Assembly (NCBI GenBank): GCA_902579605.1
Contig: CACHHD010000004.1
Coordinates: 1 to 64,000, forward strand
Direction: 5' to 3'
DNA: 64,000 bases
DNA from: an uncultured Pelagibacteraceae bacterium
GTDB lineage: Bacteria; Pseudomonadota; Alphaproteobacteria; Pelagibacterales; Pelagibacteraceae
The position numbers were made by a program, and so were the translations under genes. Positions 24,783 to 42,100 of this stretch are shown piece after piece; within the stretch, counting starts at the first letter, position 1; every line of letters begins with the position of its first letter. The notes beneath the pieces are model-generated. The model made no database searches. It was given only the letters and a program-made list of their open reading frames with translations, and was not told the origin of the DNA.

Positions 24783-26798
24783 ATGAAAAAAAACTCTTAT
24801 AAAAACAAATCTACCCTTTTAGAGAAATTAAGATCTAAATCGAAACGTGAAGCAAATTTATTTTTCTCTCTATGTGAAGATGATAATGAAACAATCAAAA
24901 CAAAAAGATTTAAAGATGTTTTGTTAAATTCTGGTTTAAAAGCAAACGATAAAAGACTATTTAGCCTTTTTCAAAATTTAGATGCCCATGGTGATAAAAT
25001 TGTATTCGAAGACTTTATTGAAATTATCCGAAGTTCAGAATTAATTGTTGAAAAAGCCTTACGAGGTGAACTATCAATACCAGACTTCACCTACTTTGCA
25101 AAAAATTTAAATGATATGTTTGATGAAGTCAAAAAAGTTAAATCAGGAGAATTAGCTTCGTATATTCCTCCTCTAGCTAATGTTGATCCAGACCAATTTG
25201 GCGTCGCAATTGTTACAACAGATGGTCAGATATATCAAAAAGGTGACAGTGAGGTTGATTTTTCAATTCAATCTATGTGCAAACCTTTTAATTACTGCTT
25301 TGCGATGGAAAAATTAGGATTAGAAAAAGTTCACCAACATGTTGGTCAAGAACCCTCTGGTAGACAATTTGATGATCTTACTCTGTTAGCTAAAACTGCA
25401 GTTGGTCAACTTAACCGCATACCTTTCAATCCAATGGTCAACGCTGGCGCTATAATGACAGCAGGTCTTATAGGTCCAGAAGAATCACATAGTCAAAGAT
25501 TAAGATACATAAGACAACAGTTTGGAAGATTAATAGGTTGGTCTCCAAAAGATAATTTTAGTGCAGAGTTACCAAGATTCAATAAAGATATGGCACGGCA
25601 AGAAAATTTTACAGGATATAATAATATTGCCATGGGATATCTTTTAATGGCTACAGGAAATTTACCTCACACTAAAACTAAGCTACATAATGATATCCAT
25701 CCTGATGAAGATGAATTTGACTTTTATTCTGAACCTGCAGTCACAGAAGCTCTTAAACTTTATTTTAGCATATGTTCACTAGAGATGACCTCAGTAAATT
25801 TTGCAACAGCTGCCGCTACACTTGCAAATAGTGGTGTTTGTCCTATTTCTCAAGATCGTGTGTTAAGTCAGAAAACAGTAAGAAACTGTTTACCCGTTTT
25901 ACAAACTAGTGGAATGTACAATGCTAGCGGTACATTCTTTCAACAAGTTGGGTTACCAGCAAAAAGTGGAGTAGGAGGAGGAGTTATATTGGTAGTACCT
26001 AGATTAATGGGAATATGTATTTTTTCTCCACGCTTAGACAAACAAGGCAATAGTGTTCGAGGAATTGAAATGGCGAAGCGAATAACGTCAAAATATTTAG
26101 TTCATACTTTTGATGGTACGATGACAGACACAGATCGTCTTGATCCAAAAATACCAATTTCAAAATGGCGTGCAAATAGTTGTGGAGAAGCTATTTGGGC
26201 TGCGAGTAATGGAAATATTAGAACATTAGAACGTCTTGTTAGTGAACAAAGAGATCTTCAAATTGGAGACTATGATATGAGAACTCCATTGCATCTGGCC
26301 TCAGCTGAAGGAAAACTAGAAGCAGTTCAATTTTTACTTAAACAAGGTGTGAAACCAATACCTGATCGTTGGGGAGGATATGGTTACTTTGATGCAAAAA
26401 ATAATAACCATAAAGATATTGTAAAAGAATATGAAAAACTAGATATTAACTATACTCAAGCATCGCATTTAGTTGAAGATCCAAATGGAAAGACGGATAA
26501 GATGGCAATTTACGATGACGAACTGGCAGTAATTGAACTATTATTCGCAGCTTTTGAAAATAACGTTGAGGGTATTCGAAGCTTGATCGCTAAAGGAGTG
26601 CCTGTACACGCGGGCGACTATGATTCTAGAACTGCTTTACATCTTGCAGCAGCAGAGGGTTGCTTGGAGGTAGTCGAATATTTAGTTTCGCATGGACATC
26701 CAGTATTTGTCCGTGATAGGTGGGGAGCTACACCTTTAGATGAGGCTAAAAGAGAAAAAAGAAAATCCGTAATAAATTATCTTAAAGATTTTAAATAA
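24783..26798 (+). CDS. glsA: glutaminase of animal kidney-type architecture with two ankyrin modules
   Basis: A 671-residue enzyme that hydrolyses glutamine to glutamate and ammonia. Residues about 15-120 match the helical, EF-hand-like N-terminal domain of animal GLS (for example LSIPDFTYFAKNLNDMFDE). The beta-lactamase-like catalytic domain (about 125-440) has Ser164 and Lys167 in IQSMCKPFNY, GQEPSGRQF, PMVNAGAIM, FTGYNNIAMGYLL and LPAKSGVGGGVILVVP. Two ankyrin modules follow, DYDMRTPLHLASAEGKLEAV and DYDSRTALHLAAAEGCLEVV; human GLS has one. Arg codons are 15 CGN and 18 AGR, against 0 and 15 in sufB, suggesting acquisition from elsewhere. No signal peptide is seen. It is convergent with glnA, 5 bases apart. 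Confidence 0.92.
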   Translation: MKKNSYKNKSTLLEKLRSKSKREANLFFSLCEDDNETIKTKRFKDVLLNSGLKANDKRLFSLFQNLDAHGDKIVFEDFIEIIRSSELIVEKALRGELSIPDFTYFAKNLNDMFDEVKKVKSGELASYIPPLANVDPDQFGVAIVTTDGQIYQKGDSEVDFSIQSMCKPFNYCFAMEKLGLEKVHQHVGQEPSGRQFDDLTLLAKTAVGQLNRIPFNPMVNAGAIMTAGLIGPEESHSQRLRYIRQQFGRLIGWSPKDNFSAELPRFNKDMARQENFTGYNNIAMGYLLMATGNLPHTKTKLHNDIHPDEDEFDFYSEPAVTEALKLYFSICSLEMTSVNFATAAATLANSGVCPISQDRVLSQKTVRNCLPVLQTSGMYNASGTFFQQVGLPAKSGVGGGVILVVPRLMGICIFSPRLDKQGNSVRGIEMAKRITSKYLVHTFDGTMTDTDRLDPKIPISKWRANSCGEAIWAASNGNIRTLERLVSEQRDLQIGDYDMRTPLHLASAEGKLEAVQFLLKQGVKPIPDRWGGYGYFDAKNNNHKDIVKEYEKLDINYTQASHLVEDPNGKTDKMAIYDDELAVIELLFAAFENNVEGIRSLIAKGVPVHAGDYDSRTALHLAAAEGCLEVVEYLVSHGHPVFVRDRWGATPLDEAKREKRKSVINYLKDFK

Positions 26799-33763: not shown

Positions 33764-36145
33764 ATGAATGTAACTTATACAAAACCTTTATTACCACTCA
33801 GAGATATAGTTATTTTTCCTTCAATTGTAGTCCCACTATTTGTTGGTAGAGAAAAATCAATTAAAGCTCTGCAAGAGGCTATGAAAACAGATAAATCAAT
33901 AATTTTAGTAGCTCAAAAAAATTCTGAGACTGATGACCCAGTAGAAAAAGATTTGTTTTCTTTTGGATGTATGAGCAAAATACTTCAACTCCTTAAATTA
34001 CCTGACGGTACGGTAAAAGTTTTAGTGGAGGGTCAAAAAAGAGTAAAAATCTTGAAAATAAAAAATGAAACAAATTATCTTAATTGCGATATAGAAATTG
34101 CAGGCGATATTAATACTTCCAAAGATTTAGATATTTACGCCCAAGGTTTAGTTAAAAAATTTGAAAAATTAATAGTTTTGAATAAAAAAGATTTTAATGA
34201 AAATTTAAATGTTATTAAAAATTCAAAAGATGCACAAATAATTGCTGATAATATTGCAGCCAATCTAAACATTAATATTTTACAAAAACAAGAAATTCTA
34301 GAAATCAGAGATTTGAGAAAAAGATTAGAAAAAATATATGAAATAGTAAATAAAGAAACTAGTGTTATTTCAGTTGAGAAAAAGATTAGAGGAAGAGTTA
34401 AGACTCAAATGGAAAAAACTCAAAGAGAGTACTATTTGAATGAACAACTAAAGGCAATTCAAAAAGAATTAGGAGAAATTGATGAGGGAAAAGACGAAAT
34501 AGCAAATATTTCAAAAGCAATTACTAAAGCAAAGATGCCTAAAGTTGCTCAAGATAAATGTTTTTCAGAACTTAAAAAATTAAAATCTATGAGCCCTATG
34601 TCTGCTGAAGCAACTGTTGTAAGAAATTATCTAGATTGGATGACTGATCTTCCATGGTCTGAAAAGACTAAAATAAATAATGATTTAAATTCAGCTCAAA
34701 AAATTCTTGATGAAGATCATTATGGTTTAGACAAAGTAAAAGAGAGAATTATAGAATTTTTAGCTGTTCAGAAAAGAATTCAAAAAATGAAAGGCCCAAT
34801 TCTCTGCTTAGTCGGTCCACCAGGTGTTGGCAAAACTTCTCTTGGTAAATCTATTGCAAAAGCGACTAATAGAAAGTTTATAAGAATTTCTTTAGGAGGA
34901 ATAAGAGATGAAGCTGAGATTAGAGGTCATAGAAGAACTTACATCGGATCTTTACCTGGAAAGATAATTCAGATGATGAAAAAGGCTGGAACTAGAAACC
35001 CATTATTTTTGTTAGATGAAATTGATAAGGTTGGTAACGACTATAGAGGAGATCCTTCGTCAGCTTTATTAGAAGCTTTAGATCCAGAACAAAATAAAGA
35101 ATTTAACGACCATTATTTGGAGGTTGACTACGATTTATCAGATGTAATGTTTGTCACTACCGCTAATACTCTTAATATCCTACCACCTCTTTTAGACAGA
35201 ATGGAAGTTATTAGAATCTCGGGTTATACAGAAGATGAAAAAGTAAATATTTCTCAAAAATATCTAATTCCAAAACAAAGCAAGAACAATGGTTTAAAAA
35301 AAGATGAGTGGAATTTAAACGAAGAAGTAAACAGAAAAATAATAAGAAATTATACAAGAGAGTCTGGGGTAAGAAATTTAGAGAGAGAGATAGCAAAAAT
35401 AGCTAGAAAACTTGTTAAGAAAATAGATGCTAAAGAAAAAGTTAATTCAACTTTGCAAGAAAAAGATCTAAGTAATTTGTTAGGAGTTCAAAAATTTAAA
35501 TACGGAGAAATAGAGGAAGATAATAGAGTTGGGGTAGTAACCGGTTTAGCCTGGACAGAGGTAGGAGGAGAGATATTGAAAATAGAGTCTGCTGTAATGC
35601 CAGGAAAAGGAAAAATGCAAATAACTGGTAAATTAGGTGAAGTAATGCAAGAATCTGTAAAAGCAGCCAAATCATATATAAGATCTAAAAGTCTTGAATT
35701 TGGTATAATACCTCCAATTTTTGATAAAAAAGATTTTCATATACATGTTCCTGAAGGTGCTACACCAAAAGATGGACCTTCAGCCGGAATTGCAATGGTG
35801 ACCTCTATTGTTTCTGCGATAACAGAGATTCCAGTCGATAAGAAAGTTGCCATGACAGGTGAAATAACATTAAGAGGTTTAGTGTTACCAATAGGTGGTT
35901 TGAAAGAAAAACTTTTAGCAGCTCACAGAGCAGGTATTAAAAAAGTTTTAATCCCTATCGAAAATAAAAAAGATCTTACAGAAGTACCCGACTCTATAAA
36001 AAAGAATATGGAAATTATACCTGTTAAAAATGTCGATGAAGTTTTAAAGATAGCTCTAACAAAAAACCTTAAAAGAGTAGAATGGGTAGAAGTAGAACAG
36101 ATTTCTAAAAACAAAACAAAAGAAGAGTCTAAAAGCACCCATTAA
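33764..36145 (+). CDS. lon: ATP-dependent Lon protease
   Basis: A 793-residue homohexameric protease for misfolded and short-lived regulatory proteins. The N-terminal LON domain begins [22 protein letters not shown] coiled helical segment precedes the AAA+ domain with Walker [14 protein letters not shown], then [20 protein letters not shown] and [11 protein letters not shown]. The protease domain carries the Ser673-Lys716 dyad in [11 protein letters not shown] and [11 protein letters not shown]. It follows clpX by 49 bases and completes the tig-clpP-clpX-lon block. Confidence 0.97.
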
Positions 36146-36207
36146 TTACTAATTTAGTTTATCAAGGTTATTGTTTCCAAATTATATTTAGAGTAGATTT
36201 ACTTTTC

Positions 36208-38754
36208 ATGGGAAAGAAAATAGTAATTACTGGTGGCTTAGGATACATAGGTACCGAGTTATGTAAAATTTACTCTGGTTATAGCTGGAATGATAATATT
36301 ATAGTCATAGACAATAGATTTGTTTCTGAGAGAGTAAATCAATTAAGAAATTGGAATATAAATTTTATACAAGGTGATATTTTAGATAAAGATTTAATAA
36401 ATCATCACTGTAAAGATGCAGATATTATTCATCATCTTGCAGGTATTACAAAAGTACCTAGAGTCAAAAGTGAAATGGACGATCAATCTAGTAAAGAAAT
36501 TAAACTTATTGCAGAACAAGGAACACAAAATATTTTAGACGCTATGCCAAATAAGTGTAAAATAATTATGCCATCTACTCACGTAGTTTATGAGGGTATA
36601 AACCAAATTAAAAAAGATATCTCAGAGGAAGAAACTACTTGTCCTACTTTATCTTATGCAAAATCAAAAGATTACAATGAAAAACAACTAAAAAATTCAG
36701 GAAAAAATTATGTAATTTTAAGATTAGGATCAGTGTATGGATACTCTACTGATACTATGAGAATAGATATTATGCCCAATCTATTTTCTAAAATATCCTC
36801 CCAAAATGGAGTTTTAAAATTATTTTCAGGAGGAAAACAAGTTAAAAGCTTAGTTCCCTTAATTGATGTGGCTAGATGTTTTAAATTTATGGAGGAAAGA
36901 AATGATATAAATAAGGATTTGTTCAATTTGACTAAAGATACTGTCACAGTAAAAGAAGTAGCAGAAATATGTAAGAAATATAATCCTAAAATTGTTTTAA
37001 GGGAAACAAATGATGAAATTCCAAATTTAGGCTTTTCACTTTCTAATAAAAAAATAAAACAAAAAGGTTTTAAATTTCTATATAAACTTGATGAAAGTAT
37101 CAAGGAGATGATTTCTAAATGGTCAAGTCAAAATTTAAAAAAAGATTTAGAATATGTTAAAAGTGGCCAAAATGAATTTATTGATAAACGTGGAAAAATA
37201 AGTAATCACGAACTAACTGAACCAATTAATTTAATTGGATTAATTAGCTCTAAAAAAGGAACTATAAGAGCCAATCATTACCATCCTCAGCAAGAACAAA
37301 AGTGTCTTTTTACAAAAGGACAAATTATAGAAGTTTTCCAAGATATAATTAACCCAGGATCTCCAAAAATTACACAAGTTGTTAATGAGGGTGAACTGTC
37401 AATAATTAAACCAAATGTTGCACATACAATGGTTTTTACTAAAGACACAACTTTTTTAAATTTAGTAAGAGGGGAAAGAGAACATGATAATTATGGAATT
37501 ACTCACACAATTAAACATGTATTTGTTAATGAAAAAGAAAAAAAACTTTTAATGAGTTGTTATAAATTTGAGTGTAGATCGTGTGGAAATACAAACTTAA
37601 AGAGAGTTGTGTCACTAGGATATCAGCCTTTAGCTAATAATTTGATTAAAAATAAAAATGATAAGAGTGAACTTTATCCACTAGAGATGAATTATTGCAA
37701 AAAATGTCATAACTGCCAATTATCGGTTTCAGTGGACCCTAAAAAGATGTTCTCAAACTATTTGTATACATCGTCTACTTCAAAAATTTTTAGAGATCAT
37801 TTTGTAAAAGCGGCAAAAAGCTACATAAAAAATTTCAAATTAAATCCTAAAAAATCTTACATTATTGATATTGGTAGCAATGATGGTGTAGCACTTAAAC
37901 CTTTTAAAGATTTAAATTTTAAGAATATCTTGGGAGTAGAACCTGCTAAAAATTTAGCTAAAACTGCTAACAAAAACAAGATTAAAACATTTAATGGTTT
38001 TTTAAATAAAAAAAACATAAAAAAAATGAAAAAAGGTGCAGATTTAATTCTAGCTTCGAATGTATTCGCTCATTCAGACAACCTTCAAGAAATGGCAGAA
38101 TGTATGTTTAATTTGTTAGATAAAAAAGGGACCATAATTATTGAAGTGCAATATTTGCTTAATACATTAAAAGATCTTACCTTTGATAATATATACCATG
38201 AACACTACAATTATTGGTCTTTAACATCATTAAATAATTTTTTTAATAGATTAAACGCAAAGATATACCGCTCAGAAAGAATTGAAACTCATGGTGGATC
38301 TATAAGAGTATACATTTCAAAAGATAAAAATAAAAAAGTTGAAAAAAGTGTTTCAAAATTAATTGCAGATGAAAACAAATTTGGAATAAAAAAATTTGAA
38401 ACATATAAAAAATTTGGAGAAAAAGTTTACAAAATAAGAGAAAATATTCTTAAGAATTTCAACAAACTTAAGAAGGATCATAAAAAAATAATAGGATATG
38501 GTGCCCCAGCAAAAGCTACAACAGCACTTAATTTTTATGGTATTTCAGATCAAATTGATTTTATAGTAGAGGATAATTCTTTAAAACATAATAAATTCAT
38601 TCCTGGAGTAAAAATACCTATCAAGAGTAAAAAAATAGTAAAAAACAATAATAACACCATGGTTGTTTTAGCCTGGAATTTTTTTAAAGATATTAAGAAG
38701 AATAATTCAAATTTGTCTAAAAATTTTATTAATATTAAAGAATTAGAAAATTAA
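36208..38754 (+). CDS. three-domain sugar-modifying fusion: NAD-dependent epimerase/dehydratase + cupin + C-methyltransferase
   Basis: An 848-residue fusion. Residues 1-310 are an extended SDR with GGLGYIG at 9-15 and the YxxxK pair Tyr150/Lys154 (SYAKSK). Residues about 335-450 are a WxcM/FdtA-like sugar cupin (ANHYHPQQEQKCLFTKGQ, KPNVAHTMVF). From 456 a zinc-binding motif (CRSCGNTN, then CKKCHNC) opens a NovU/TylC3-type sugar C-methyltransferase, with the SAM motif IIDIGSNDGVA near 552, EVQYLL, YHEHYNYW, ETHGGSIRVY and the C-terminal GYGAPAKATTALNF near 763. Together they suggest stepwise making of a branched deoxysugar on an NDP-sugar. The frame is continuous with no break at the joints. 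No other NDP-sugar gene is adjacent. Substrate is unknown. Confidence 0.88.
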   Translation: MGKKIVITGGLGYIGTELCKIYSGYSWNDNIIVIDNRFVSERVNQLRNWNINFIQGDILDKDLINHHCKDADIIHHLAGITKVPRVKSEMDDQSSKEIKLIAEQGTQNILDAMPNKCKIIMPSTHVVYEGINQIKKDISEEETTCPTLSYAKSKDYNEKQLKNSGKNYVILRLGSVYGYSTDTMRIDIMPNLFSKISSQNGVLKLFSGGKQVKSLVPLIDVARCFKFMEERNDINKDLFNLTKDTVTVKEVAEICKKYNPKIVLRETNDEIPNLGFSLSNKKIKQKGFKFLYKLDESIKEMISKWSSQNLKKDLEYVKSGQNEFIDKRGKISNHELTEPINLIGLISSKKGTIRANHYHPQQEQKCLFTKGQIIEVFQDIINPGSPKITQVVNEGELSIIKPNVAHTMVFTKDTTFLNLVRGEREHDNYGITHTIKHVFVNEKEKKLLMSCYKFECRSCGNTNLKRVVSLGYQPLANNLIKNKNDKSELYPLEMNYCKKCHNCQLSVSVDPKKMFSNYLYTSSTSKIFRDHFVKAAKSYIKNFKLNPKKSYIIDIGSNDGVALKPFKDLNFKNILGVEPAKNLAKTANKNKIKTFNGFLNKKNIKKMKKGADLILASNVFAHSDNLQEMAECMFNLLDKKGTIIIEVQYLLNTLKDLTFDNIYHEHYNYWSLTSLNNFFNRLNAKIYRSERIETHGGSIRVYISKDKNKKVEKSVSKLIADENKFGIKKFETYKKFGEKVYKIRENILKNFNKLKKDHKKIIGYGAPAKATTALNFYGISDQIDFIVEDNSLKHNKFIPGVKIPIKSKKIVKNNNNTMVVLAWNFFKDIKKNNSNLSKNFINIKELEN

Positions 38755-39311
38755 TATAAATTAAAAGCATCTCTAAAAAGTATCCCAAAATTATTCAAAT
38801 TTTCAAACAAATACTCTATGTAGACCTGTGTAAAAGGAAAATTGAATATAATAATTTCTTTCGTAAGATTTAAAATCCCAATTATCGACGTAACTGTAAA
38901 TAAGAATACAATTAAATAGCTGTAAAAACCAAAATAGGATTGGGGTACTTTTTTATTTGATTTATTTATTGATGTATTCTTTTTGCTTTCGTCAATACTA
39001 ATGCCATGTTTTTTTTCTAGGTACTCTTTTGAATATATTGAAGGCCCAGATCTTTTTTTGACTATTTTCTTTTTTTTTATTGGCGTGCTAAAATTTCTTT
39101 CTTTTTGTATTATAGGTAAAACTTTTGCAGGTTTTTTTATTACCTCTTTTTTAGCCGAGAAATTCATTGGCTCTTTCGTTACTTTTTTTGTAATTGGAAA
39201 TTGTGTCCATTTATTTCCACAAAAGCTACACTGAACTAATCGACCAGCTGCTGGTATAGCATTATCAGGAACTACAAATTTTTTTTCACCACATTGACAA
39301 TCAAGAATCAT
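38751..39311 (-). CDS. zinc-ribbon membrane protein (MJ0042-type)
   Basis: A 186-residue protein. The N-terminus MILDCQCGEKKFVVPDNAI with Cys5/Cys7 and LVQCSFCGNKWTQFP with Cys28/Cys31 forms a zinc ribbon of the kind annotated as MJ0042/zinc_ribbon_5. A basic, Lys-rich linker (about 42-120) is followed by one membrane helix near YLIVFLFTVTSIIGIL and a short C-terminal tail. Function is unknown; homologues are common in alphaproteobacteria. It is convergent with the sugar fusion gene, overlapping by 4 bases, and reads away from the tRNA genes. Confidence 0.75.
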   Translation of the reverse strand: MILDCQCGEKKFVVPDNAIPAAGRLVQCSFCGNKWTQFPITKKVTKEPMNFSAKKEVIKKPAKVLPIIQKERNFSTPIKKKKIVKKRSGPSIYSKEYLEKKHGISIDESKKNTSINKSNKKVPQSYFGFYSYLIVFLFTVTSIIGILNLTKEIIIFNFPFTQVYIEYLFENLNNFGILFRDAFNLY

Positions 39312-39353
39312 AACATTAATAATACAGCTTATTTATAGCTCTATAAATACATT

Positions 39354-39382
39354 TTTACTTTACGGGAATTATATTGTATATG
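39354..39382 (+). promoter_or_regulatory. candidate sigma-70 promoter of the tRNA-Val/tRNA-Asp pair
   Basis: TTTACT (39354-39359) and TATATG (39377-39382) are separated by 17 bases. The predicted start is about 7 bases further on, just before tRNA-Val at 39397. It is the only good promoter-like pair in the 85 bases upstream. Confidence 0.4.
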
Positions 39383-39396
39383 TCGAACAAATTTAA

Positions 39397-39472
39397 GGGT
39401 GGTTAGCTCAGTTGGTAGAGCATCTCGTTTACACCGAGAGGGTCATAGGTTCGAGTCCTTTACCACCCACCA
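39397..39472 (+). tRNA. tRNA-Val (anticodon UAC)
   Basis: A 76-base cloverleaf: acceptor GGGTGGT pairs with ACCACCC, the D-arm reads AGCTCAGTTGGTAGAGC, the anticodon stem TCTCG/CGAGA closes the loop TTTACAC with anticodon UAC, the T-arm contains GGTTCGAGTCC, and CCA is encoded at 39470-39472. tRNA-Asp starts 3 bases later. Confidence 0.97.
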
Positions 39473-39475
39473 TTT

Positions 39476-39553
39476 GGGGGTGTAGCTCAGTTTGGTTAGA
39501 GCGCCTGCCTGTCACGCAGGAGGCCGCGGGTTCGAGTCCCGTCACTCCCGCCA
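39476..39553 (+). tRNA. tRNA-Asp (anticodon GUC)
   Basis: A 78-base cloverleaf: acceptor GGGGGTG pairs with CACTCCC (one G-T pair), the D-arm reads AGCTCAGTTTGGTTAGAGC, the anticodon stem CCTGC/GCAGG closes loop CTGTCAC with anticodon GUC, and the T-arm reads GGGTTCGAGTCCC. Discriminator G and CCA end at 39553. It is the substrate of the AspRS encoded at 1080-2867. Confidence 0.97.
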
Positions 39554-39559
39554 TGTTTT

Positions 39560-41113
39560 TTAACAATTTTTGAGAATTAGTTTATAAAAAGTTTCTGAAA
39601 ATTTTTCTTTTTTAAAACAACCTTTTAAAACATTTTCCAAGGGTTTTGTTTCACCATGTAAAGGCATTAAAACATAAATTTTGTTAATGTTATTTTTATC
39701 AATTTTTTTTAAAACGAAGTCATTCCAATAATCAAAAAGCTCATTTTCTTCATTTGGATAACCGTGATAATCGTACCAAAACCTTGTAGGGGAATAGTCG
39801 TATTCATTTAGGAAAACTGAAATAAATTGATAATCAGTTATGAGCATTTTCTTTTCTTTGTCTTCTCTCAAGATTTTTAATGCCAATTTAATGCTAGTTA
39901 CTTCTTCTTGTGGATTCTCTGGGTAAAACATAGTTATCCATTTTATCTTTGACAATTTAGGATGTATCAACCCACCATCTATCGAATTTTCTAAATTTAC
40001 ACCTCTAAGATCCATAAAAGTTCTATTTTTTATGTAGGTAAAGTAATAATAGACGGTAGAACAAAGTGTAAGTGAAATTAAAAAAATACTTATTAGTCTT
40101 TGTTTTTCTAAATATTTTTTTGCATACACATTTGAGAAACCTGCAAATACTGGAATTAAGCAATAAATAAAAATTGCGTTAATAGTCATTAATTGATGCA
40201 CTATTGATACAAAACAAAATAAAATTAATCCTAAAATTATAAGATTATCTAAAAAAAAATTGTTTTTTTTTAATAAATTATATTTGATTGATAAATAAAC
40301 TAATACTACAATAGATAAATACTGTAGTTTAAAACGCCAAATTACTCTTTTAAACTCTAATGGAAATAGCCAATCTAATCTACCACTACCTAATGTTTTT
40401 GGATATAAGAAGTATTGAGTAAAAAAATCATCAAAATTAATACCAGCCATAAAAAGTAAAGTAAAAAATATAATCAGAGTAACTAAAATCCCAGATAAAG
40501 CAGAAAAAAAATTAGATATACTTTTAATCTTAAAAAAATACGCAAGAGATATAAATGATATTATTAAAATAACATAAGCAGTCGGAGCCTGCTTAGACAT
40601 AAAAGAAAATCCCAACAAAATAGGAATTGAAAACCAATAAATATTTTTTTTTTCTTTTATAGCCAAAACAAAAAAATAAAAAGATATTACGCATAATATT
40701 AAAGTGTGGTGATCACTAAAAGGAGTGCCAACAGTGGGGTAAGTCAAAATTGCTACGCATAAAGAATAAAAAAAACTTAGGTTATTATTTAGTTCAAATT
40801 TTTTTAAAATAAAAAAAGTAAAAATAGTAATAAGACAATTAAAAACTGATGCGTGGAAAACATACGAGAACCAAGAAACACCAAATAATTTGAAAAAGAT
40901 TGCTTGTATTAGGTCGATAAAAGGTTCTTTTATCGTCCAATAATCTTTGAATGGATAATTTCCATTCATAAGATCATAACCAGAGTTAAATATTAAGAAA
41001 CTGTCTATCGGTAATATACCTATGTATCCATAGTATTGATTAAATAACACAGAAAATAATACTAAGGAAATTATTAAATATAGATTTTTAAAATTATTAC
41101 TTTTTAATTTCAT
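39560..41113 (-). CDS. polytopic membrane protein, probable GT-C/ArnT-like glycosyltransferase
   Basis: A 517-residue protein with about ten or more hydrophobic helices in the first 370 residues and a soluble C-terminal tail. An early loop carries PIDSFLIFNSGYDLMNGNYP followed by KDYWTIKEPF, with acidic residues where GT-C enzymes of the PMT/ArnT type have their catalytic Asp. A second loop has TVGTPFSDHHTLI. Such enzymes move sugars from polyprenyl phosphates on the periplasmic face. I cannot name donor or acceptor. It overlaps the upstream methyltransferase gene by 17 bases and ends 6 bases from tRNA-Asp on the other strand. Confidence 0.65.
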   Translation of the reverse strand: MKLKSNNFKNLYLIISLVLFSVLFNQYYGYIGILPIDSFLIFNSGYDLMNGNYPFKDYWTIKEPFIDLIQAIFFKLFGVSWFSYVFHASVFNCLITIFTFFILKKFELNNNLSFFYSLCVAILTYPTVGTPFSDHHTLILCVISFYFFVLAIKEKKNIYWFSIPILLGFSFMSKQAPTAYVILIISFISLAYFFKIKSISNFFSALSGILVTLIIFFTLLFMAGINFDDFFTQYFLYPKTLGSGRLDWLFPLEFKRVIWRFKLQYLSIVVLVYLSIKYNLLKKNNFFLDNLIILGLILFCFVSIVHQLMTINAIFIYCLIPVFAGFSNVYAKKYLEKQRLISIFLISLTLCSTVYYYFTYIKNRTFMDLRGVNLENSIDGGLIHPKLSKIKWITMFYPENPQEEVTSIKLALKILREDKEKKMLITDYQFISVFLNEYDYSPTRFWYDYHGYPNEENELFDYWNDFVLKKIDKNNINKIYVLMPLHGETKPLENVLKGCFKKEKFSETFYKLILKNC

Positions 41114-41900
41114 TTATTTTTTTTAGTACAACTGTTCTATTTAAAGCAAAAATACTTGGCAGAAAAAAGATCAAAATTTTATCAACCATATTTATTATTT
41201 TGAGGAAAAACGGACTACATTTTACATGAAAAAAACTGGAATTTACTCCTCCTGAATTTAAAAAAATTAAAAATTCCGATAATCTGTTTTCCACTATTTT
41301 ATACTGGGGAAAATATTTTTGAAATTTACCTTTATTTTTAAATAGCAGTTGTGCGACGGCAGTATTTGAAATCCAAGGACTTTTAGGATTAAAAATACTC
41401 TTTTTATTAAATACTTTAGCCTTTAAAGACCAACTTTCATCATCTAATAATATTTGTATTAGCTTTAAAAAAAAAGACGTTTCAGGTTCATTAATTAATA
41501 TATATCCATTTTTTTTTAAATAAATAGACATTTTTTTTAGAGTTAATCCAGGGTTTGAGCAGTGATGAAGTGAATGATTAATAATAAATATATCAATTTT
41601 TTTTTGATATTTTTTTCCTAAGTTCACTTTTAACATATCTACTTTCTTATCAATCCATGGATATTTTATAATATCAGTTAAGATTATTTTCTTATCATTT
41701 ATTATTTTTTTTATGCATCCATTTCCAGAACCTAATTCAATGATAAGTTTTTTTCCTTTCATGTATTTTTTCATCCATGAAAATCTCTTGTTCAGAAGAT
41801 AAATTAAATTTTTATTTTCACTCGATAAGATTCTATCTCTATTTACGAAATTATCAGGAGCTTTAATTTTCTTTGCTTTATATTCCTTTAAAAAAAACAT
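41097..41900 (-). CDS. class I SAM-dependent methyltransferase
   Basis: A 267-residue protein with the Rossmann SAM fold: motif I as LIIELGSGNGCIKKII, then ILTDIIKYPWID, FIINHSLHHCSNPGLTL as the post-II region and LKKNGYILINEPE. The C-terminal third is less conserved and has a hydrophobic stretch (ILIFFLPSIFALNRTVVL) that may rest on the membrane. The substrate is unknown. Overlap with the GT-C-like gene suggests a joint role in surface glycan or lipid modification. Its start lies 200 bases from nuoA, with a Fur-like box between. Confidence 0.8.
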   Translation of the reverse strand: MFFLKEYKAKKIKAPDNFVNRDRILSSENKNLIYLLNKRFSWMKKYMKGKKLIIELGSGNGCIKKIINDKKIILTDIIKYPWIDKKVDMLKVNLGKKYQKKIDIFIINHSLHHCSNPGLTLKKMSIYLKKNGYILINEPETSFFLKLIQILLDDESWSLKAKVFNKKSIFNPKSPWISNTAVAQLLFKNKGKFQKYFPQYKIVENRLSEFLIFLNSGGVNSSFFHVKCSPFFLKIINMVDKILIFFLPSIFALNRTVVLKKINEIKK

Positions 41901-41975
41901 ACCTATTTTTAAGTTAGAAATTGATCAAGAAAAACTGTAATTTTTATAGTTTTTATAAAGACTTAATAAGTGATT

Positions 41976-41990
41976 TGAGAATCATTATCA
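41976..41990. promoter_or_regulatory. Fur/RirA-box-like inverted repeat between methyltransferase and nuoA
   Basis: TGAGAAT-C-ATTATCA matches the 7-1-7 Fur consensus TGATAATnATTATCA at all but one position. It also fits the rhizobial RirA spacing TGA-N9-TCA. It lies 110 bases before nuoA and 75 bases before the divergent methyltransferase. Iron control of complex I would make sense, since it is rich in Fe-S clusters, but the regulator is inferred. Confidence 0.45.
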
Positions 41991-42064
41991 ACAAATTGCT
42001 ACATTACAGTCCTAGACTCACTAAGAGATATAATATAAATCAAGACTAAGATTAATATAATAAT

Positions 42065-42086
42065 CCTCAAGCTATGTGTATTGAGG
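42065..42086 (+). promoter_or_regulatory. small hairpin in the nuoA leader
   Basis: CCTCAA (42065-42070) and TTGAGG (42081-42086) form a perfect 6-bp stem with a 10-base loop, ending 14 bases before the nuoA ATG. It may be an operator half-site pair or a leader hairpin. There is no T-run after it, so it is not a terminator. Confidence 0.3.
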
Positions 42087-42100
42087 CAAATATTGATTAA

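Follow-up and report, generated by a model that had tools for sequence, protein, structure and literature searches.

The locus described here raises the question of what a single protein carrying three sugar-modifying domains does in a SAR11 cell. It lies in the window, the 64,000 nucleotide stretch of DNA that was analysed, where positions 36208..38754 on the plus strand form a single ATG-to-stop frame of 848 codons. An earlier note on this DNA had read the frame as one continuous polypeptide, and this was confirmed: the fusion is also one full ORF, with no stop or frameshift between the domains, in every one of 80 SAR11 loci (a contig scan gave 342 relatives, of which these are the best 80, all labelled SAR11). 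Together with the selection on the gene, this rules out an assembly artefact or a chance frame. The dN/dS ratio per domain is 0.02–0.06 where computable (against three relatives), and these ratios are only rough because dS is mostly >1; one methyltransferase (MT) comparison was saturated. The SDR comprises residues 1–311 (36208..37140), the cupin residues 312–453 (37141..37566) and the sugar C-methyltransferase residues 454–848 (37567..38751), all on the plus strand. An AlphaFold2 model of the whole fusion, built with an alignment of 39 sequences, has a mean pLDDT of 86.3 and a pTM of 0.67. The enzyme families are known; word searches of the literature found no report of the three-domain SDR-cupin-MT fusion, and its distribution was unexpected. 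The statement that the three activities normally occur as separate enzymes needs to be qualified, since CapF (Cap5F) of the UDP-FucNAc pathway is a known chain with an SDR followed by a cupin, which is reported to epimerise a UDP-sugar at C3 and then to reduce it at C4 (PMC3699295).

The first domain is an SDR. Pfam Epimerase matches residues 5–238 (E 7.5e-21), and the hallmarks of extended SDRs are found: the glycine-rich motif TGGLGYIG, the acidic residue that ends beta-2 (D35), which suggests the NAD type, and the Ser/Thr-Tyr-Lys set, with S123-T124-H125 in STHVV at 123–127, Y150 and K154. In an alignment of 41 fusions G9, G12, G15, D35, H125, Y150 and K154 are present in 41/41 rows, S123 in 40 (Thr in one) and T124 in 39. 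The earlier description as epimerase or dehydratase stands only in part. In NDP-sugar 4,6-dehydratases the active site of the SDR contains Asp-Glu or a comparable acidic pair; the fusion SDR lacks this pair and has H125-V126 instead (H125 in 41/41 rows), making a function as 4,6-dehydratase unlikely. With the RmlB model the domain scores 54 bits versus a cut-off of 365. The nearest solved SDR, both by profile (E 7.7e-31) and by fold, is Cj1427, the GDP-heptose C4-dehydrogenase of Campylobacter jejuni (6vo6_D against residues 2–313 of the AlphaFold2 model in VIA-align: Z 35.0, rmsd 3.5, 300 aligned, 28% identity). Altogether, the domain matches best to a dehydrogenase and to 4-epimerases. It is not closely related to the SDR part of CapF, and none of its 31 matches at E 0.001 is Cap5F. 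Cj1427 oxidises C4 of a GDP-heptose with a tightly bound NADH that is recycled by alpha-ketoglutarate; unlike the fusion it is a stand-alone protein, its partners are separate epimerases and reductases that act after it, and C-methylation is not part of its reported pathway (PMC10680097).

The C-terminal domain is well supported as a member of the TylC3/TcaB9 family. Methyltransf_13 (456–515, E 1e-16), Methyltransf_23 (534–686) and Methyltransf_14 (694–837, E 7.3e-42) follow each other in the family's order of Methyltransf_13, SAM core and Methyltransf_14. Y518, H622, Y663, E665 and H666 align with Y76, H181, Y222, E224 and H225 of TcaB9 (numbers mapped by hand from the alignment, chain index minus 2), which are the residues mutated in TcaB9 structures according to the structure titles, and all five are invariant in 41/41 rows. 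Four cysteines in the Methyltransf_13 zinc domain, C456, C459, C497 and C500 (37573..37707, plus strand), form a putative zinc site and are kept in 37, 36, 39 and 36 of the 41 rows. TcaB9 (4e2y) superimposes on residues 453–848 of the AlphaFold2 model with Z 51.8, rmsd 1.8, 393 aligned residues and 27% identity (VIA-align); for the solved TylC3-type C-3′ methyltransferases as a whole the values are 26–32% identity and Z 48–52. The zinc domain, SAM core, C-terminal domain and the five TcaB9 residues are thus common to TylC3, TcaB9, MtmC, KijD1 and the fusion, but each solved enzyme is a protein of its own with about 400 residues, whereas in the fusion the MT forms the C-terminal end of a longer chain. 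Of the earlier label NovU/TylC3-type, the TylC3 half was borne out; NovU is not among the matches shown, which are C-3′ enzymes by their entry names. By analogy with TcaB9, KijD1 and MtmC, which we take to be the TylCIII homologue of S. argillaceus, the methyl group would be added at C3. In 4-keto sugars, C3 is the position methylated by TylC3-type enzymes, and the S. argillaceus homologue is reported to have 4-ketoreductase activity as well (PMC3539893). The same source describes the virenose and mycarose pathways, in which C3-methylation of a 4-keto sugar is likewise combined with C4-reduction, but by separate enzymes and on 6-deoxy sugars made by a dehydratase (PMC3539893).

The middle domain, folded alone with a pLDDT of 82.4, is a sugar cupin by its fold. 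In the model it fits the RmlC and FdtA types equally well, with Z 13.3, rmsd 2.8 and 136 aligned residues for the dTDP-sugar isomerase/RmlC-like 3ejk and Z 13.2, rmsd 2.3 and 119 aligned residues for the 3,4-ketoisomerase 7n67; CapF is absent among the fold matches listed. By sequence CapF is nearest, Cap5F being the best profile match, a weak one (E 0.018). In Pfam, Cupin_2, PF14667 and dTDP_sugar_isom match the cupin with E 0.002–0.003, all below cut-off. Among 29 cupins, PF14667 (best 0.00025) and Cupin_2 (best 0.00031) each match 29 at E up to 0.1, and the NCBIfam models for CapF-like WbcJ, WbuC and FnlA match 20 (best 0.003), 10 (best 0.0089) and 8 (best 0.00049), respectively; all these matches are weak. 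Metal-binding cupins carry the ligand set HxHx(3,4)E ... H. In the fusion H357, H359 and H406 are found in 41/41 rows and E363 in 37, with Gln in the other four, which suggests a putative metal site of the HxHx3E...H type. The domain had been called WxcM/FdtA-like; it is a sugar cupin, and FdtA is one of several fits. If it were a 3,4-ketoisomerase of the FdtA type, it would move the keto group between C4 and C3, the MT would methylate another position and the SDR would be a 4-epimerase or a reductase. We regard this as improbable: 3,4-ketoisomerases do as well as the epimerases in the fold comparison, but RmlC-like proteins tie with them, C3 is where the MT's solved relatives act, and no FdtA-family model is among the profile models listed for the cupins.

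How could the three domains work together? The fusion probably builds an unusual methyl-branched sugar for the surface of the cell or of a virus, and the idea of the earlier note that it carries out several steps on one NDP-sugar is supported as its likely role. From the domains, their residues and the gene linkages we tentatively propose, at somewhat less than even odds, that it is a self-sufficient trifunctional C-branching enzyme with a redox-neutral cycle. Here, the SDR with a tightly held NAD+ would oxidise C4 of a common NDP-sugar, as judged from Cj1427, the cupin would enolise or epimerise the resulting 4-keto sugar at C3, and the MT would add a SAM-derived methyl group at C3. The SDR would then re-reduce C4, yielding a 3-C-methyl sugar with no net redox change, which a neighbouring glycosyltransferase may move onto a surface glycan. 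Counting for self-sufficiency are the invariance of the five TcaB9 residues and of D35, H125, Y150 and K154 in the SDR, and the combination of a C4-dehydrogenase as nearest solved SDR with a missing dehydratase pair. The trifunctional reading is further favoured by gene linkage: in nine of nine other genomes of the phylum the unfused cupin has an MT gene at most 160 nt away on the same strand, in either order, so that the fusion joins partners already travelling together. Against self-sufficiency count the identity to Cj1427 of only 28%, a common fold being no proof of function, the Gln at E363 in four rows, the additional ketoreductase activity of the S. argillaceus enzyme, and the fact that phages can use host enzymes. 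On the Brachyspira plasmid NZ_CP046927 (L164:5920-9605), rfbF, a radical SAM gene, a gene of the dTDP-4-dehydrorhamnose 3,5-epimerase family and a class I methyltransferase gene stand in a row.

Alternatively, the fusion could act at the end of a pathway, where a separate 4,6-dehydratase (RfbG, RmlB, GMD or another) supplies an NDP-4-keto-6-deoxy sugar that the cupin epimerises and the MT methylates at C3, leaving to the SDR only the reduction at C4. This possibility has a substantial chance of being correct, though short of one half, and the odds are nearly even between an SDR that generates the ketone and one that merely reduces a ketone supplied by a dehydratase. CapF offers a precedent with its SDR-cupin order and its two successive reactions, and it is the nearest relative of the cupin by sequence; the weakness of that match and an SDR closest to a dehydrogenase and to 4-epimerases speak against it. 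CapF differs from the fusion in having no methyltransferase.

The supply of dehydratases in the genomes bears on both readings. The genome of the window has an NDP-sugar island away from the fusion (G000:C1, about 56–64 kb) with a CDP-glucose 4,6-dehydratase (RfbG) over cut-off at 421 bits, which fits an end-of-pathway role. The island also holds genes resembling those for glucose-1-phosphate cytidylyltransferase (276 bits against a cut-off of 300) and LegB (404 bits against 475). In 121 genomes of the genus the cut-off is passed by RfbG in 61, by GMD in 27 and by RmlB in 79. Among the 70 fusion-bearing genomes RfbG is found in 38 and RmlB in 48 (both over cut-off) and a GMD-like gene in 32 (at least 272 bits); 63 of the 70 have at least one of the three, as the end-of-pathway reading would expect, and seven have none. 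Each of the three is present in only part of these genomes, and a constant partner dehydratase was therefore rejected, which counts against a pathway end. A core enzyme whose accompanying dehydratases vary speaks for a core substrate and hence for the self-sufficient reading. This argument is weak because the seven genomes are incomplete (55–84%) and because most of the genomes and viruses that were searched again have PF16363 genes. In five of the seven, this search gave other family members at 99–199 bits in G027, G039, G054 and G061 (one of them a fragment) and none besides the fusion in G088. Five of six large viral records also have such a gene, at 67–206 bits; the sixth, the 194-kb record G622, has none beyond the fusion and a 23-bit fragment, and this record counts for self-sufficiency. 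GMD-like genes are found in 23 of 49 viral records (at least 223 bits, four over cut-off) and RfbH-like genes occur beside the viral fusion, which suggests pre-made 4-keto-6-deoxy sugars and fits an end-of-pathway role.

The fusion is nearly universal in one SAR11 genus and is found on dozens of viral contigs, which answers the earlier question of how widespread it is. In a search of 150 relatives an orthologue, full or partial and with 69–92% identity, was present in 70 of the 91 genomes of the window's genus, its own genome included. From the summed completeness 68.7 positives would be expected if the gene were universal, an estimate that is rough because partial genes count as positive; all 24 genus genomes that are at least 85% complete carry the fusion. 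Fourteen of the 21 negative genomes also have no clear lon, and the region is therefore often just missing, and in two loci (L185 and L187) the lon-nuo junction is empty of the fusion. One of the 70 copies, G042:C2:21973-24514, is broken by stop codons. In the other family of the order no row covering all three domains is among those listed, the widest match there being adjoining cupin and MT genes in G104. The cupin was found in 10 of 398 genomes drawn from the phylum and is fused only in the genome of the window; repeating the search from a different centre recovered the nine unfused loci again and added none. G538, a 100% complete genome from another genus of the same family, has no cupin match.

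Upstream of the fusion lies lon (33764..36145, plus strand), the usual SAR11 site, as it is the upstream neighbour in 58 of the best 80 of 342 relatives. The fusion had been described as standing apart from other NDP-sugar genes. Indeed no such gene was recognised in its vicinity within the window, but the island lies elsewhere in the genome, and a PMT_2-type glycosyltransferase is near: a membrane protein of 517 aa (39560..41113, minus strand; PMT_2 E 2.4e-8) that may use the product. Among the same best 80 relatives a GT17 gene is near the fusion in 47 (one distance rule) or 49 (a looser one), a PMT_2 homologue in 11 and an adjacent GT2 in 5, never two of them together; 15 have none of the three, some of these lacking flanking DNA. 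The lon-nuo junction (window 36146-42100; L023-L102) appears as a small variable islet in which an exchangeable GT17 or PMT_2 gene stands beside the fusion. GT17 is also found at most 1.2 kb from the fusion in 9 of 49 viral loci, and the GT17 genes of L021 and L040 belong to PF04724. SAR11 and phage GT17 are only about 27–34% identical in the pairs printed, which argues against a recent movement of GT17 and fusion as one unit.

In a tblastn search of 50,697 phage records the whole fusion was found in one, the 642 kb metagenomic LR756502 (56% identity to the fusion of the window, 64% when a viral sequence was the query). In IMG/VR a first scan found one locus, and later scanning found 48, this one included. 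Together with LR756502 these make 49 viral loci, of which 36 are one full ORF, seven are cut by contig ends and two have broken frames. Since several rows do not differ at all in their SDR-cupin part, there are fewer independent viruses than loci. The Gp23 major capsid family was matched in 15 of the 49 records (14 over cut-off), and the viral label of the others is that of IMG/VR. Besides GT11 and GT17 genes, the viral flanks hold GMD-like, GDP-fucose-synthase-like, RfbH-like and NeuB-like genes, mostly below the equivalog cut-offs. Matches in PHROGs are confined to the SDR and to one portion of the MT. One viral fusion of 1124 aa (L131:7992-11366) has, as judged by eye, an additional methyltransferase-like C-terminal stretch. 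The remaining four loci show other arrangements: in L137 SDR-cupin and MT are two genes with a 4 nt overlap, and L136:7992-10651, L139:1409-4765 and L144:7992-10620 have an SDR-cupin gene alone, with a distant MT of another type downstream. Such separations would be expected if the fusion merely brought together enzymes for different substrates or if one domain were inactive. We consider this very improbable, since the active-site residues, whose loss the earlier note had asked about, are kept in all three domains over the 41 rows and dN/dS is low where computable.

The SAR11 fusions form one clade with support 100 in the SDR-cupin tree and in both rooted cupin+MT trees. The SDR-cupin tree has no outgroup and is hence uninformative on the direction of transfer. 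When rooted on unfused cupin-MT pairs, SAR11 nests inside the viral rows in both cupin+MT trees, the first of which carries a long-branch warning, and in the reduced tree it is placed beside nine viral rows with support 92/91. Viruses stand on one side in 0% of 200 bootstrap trees of the reduced tree; a tree with one viral clade is, however, not rejected by the AU test (p 0.397). A transfer from phage to SAR11 is favoured by the best tree and is not established. The SDR-cupin and the first cupin+MT trees included 20 of the 80 SAR11 loci and the window. For the reduced tree and the AU test the SAR11 rows were cut by about half to 11, the window included, and seven viral copies or near-copies and the long unfused rows L153, L155, L158 and L221 were dropped; both cupin+MT trees and the AU test also exclude six viral rows that have just the N-terminal half. 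The full combination, in which a self-sufficient, redox-neutral synthase uses a housekeeping NDP-sugar, the SDR-cupin/C-MT fusion arose in phages and one phage copy became a core gene of the SAR11 genus beside exchangeable glycosyltransferases, is doubtful when taken as a whole.

Few cells on Earth are as numerous as those of SAR11, and to our knowledge little is known about the sugars on their surface. A gene for a probable methyl-branched sugar that nearly all members of one SAR11 genus carry, and that phages share, speaks for a specific chemistry of the surface, which could bear on phage attachment or exclusion. Since a single gene combines the three predicted activities, this unusual sugar pathway can be tested from one protein. 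Elsewhere in the window (24783-26798, plus strand) this SAR11 genome encodes a glutaminase of 671 aa that carries an EF-hand-like domain at its N-terminus and ankyrin repeats at its C-terminus, a layout that is also that of the animal kidney-type glutaminase.
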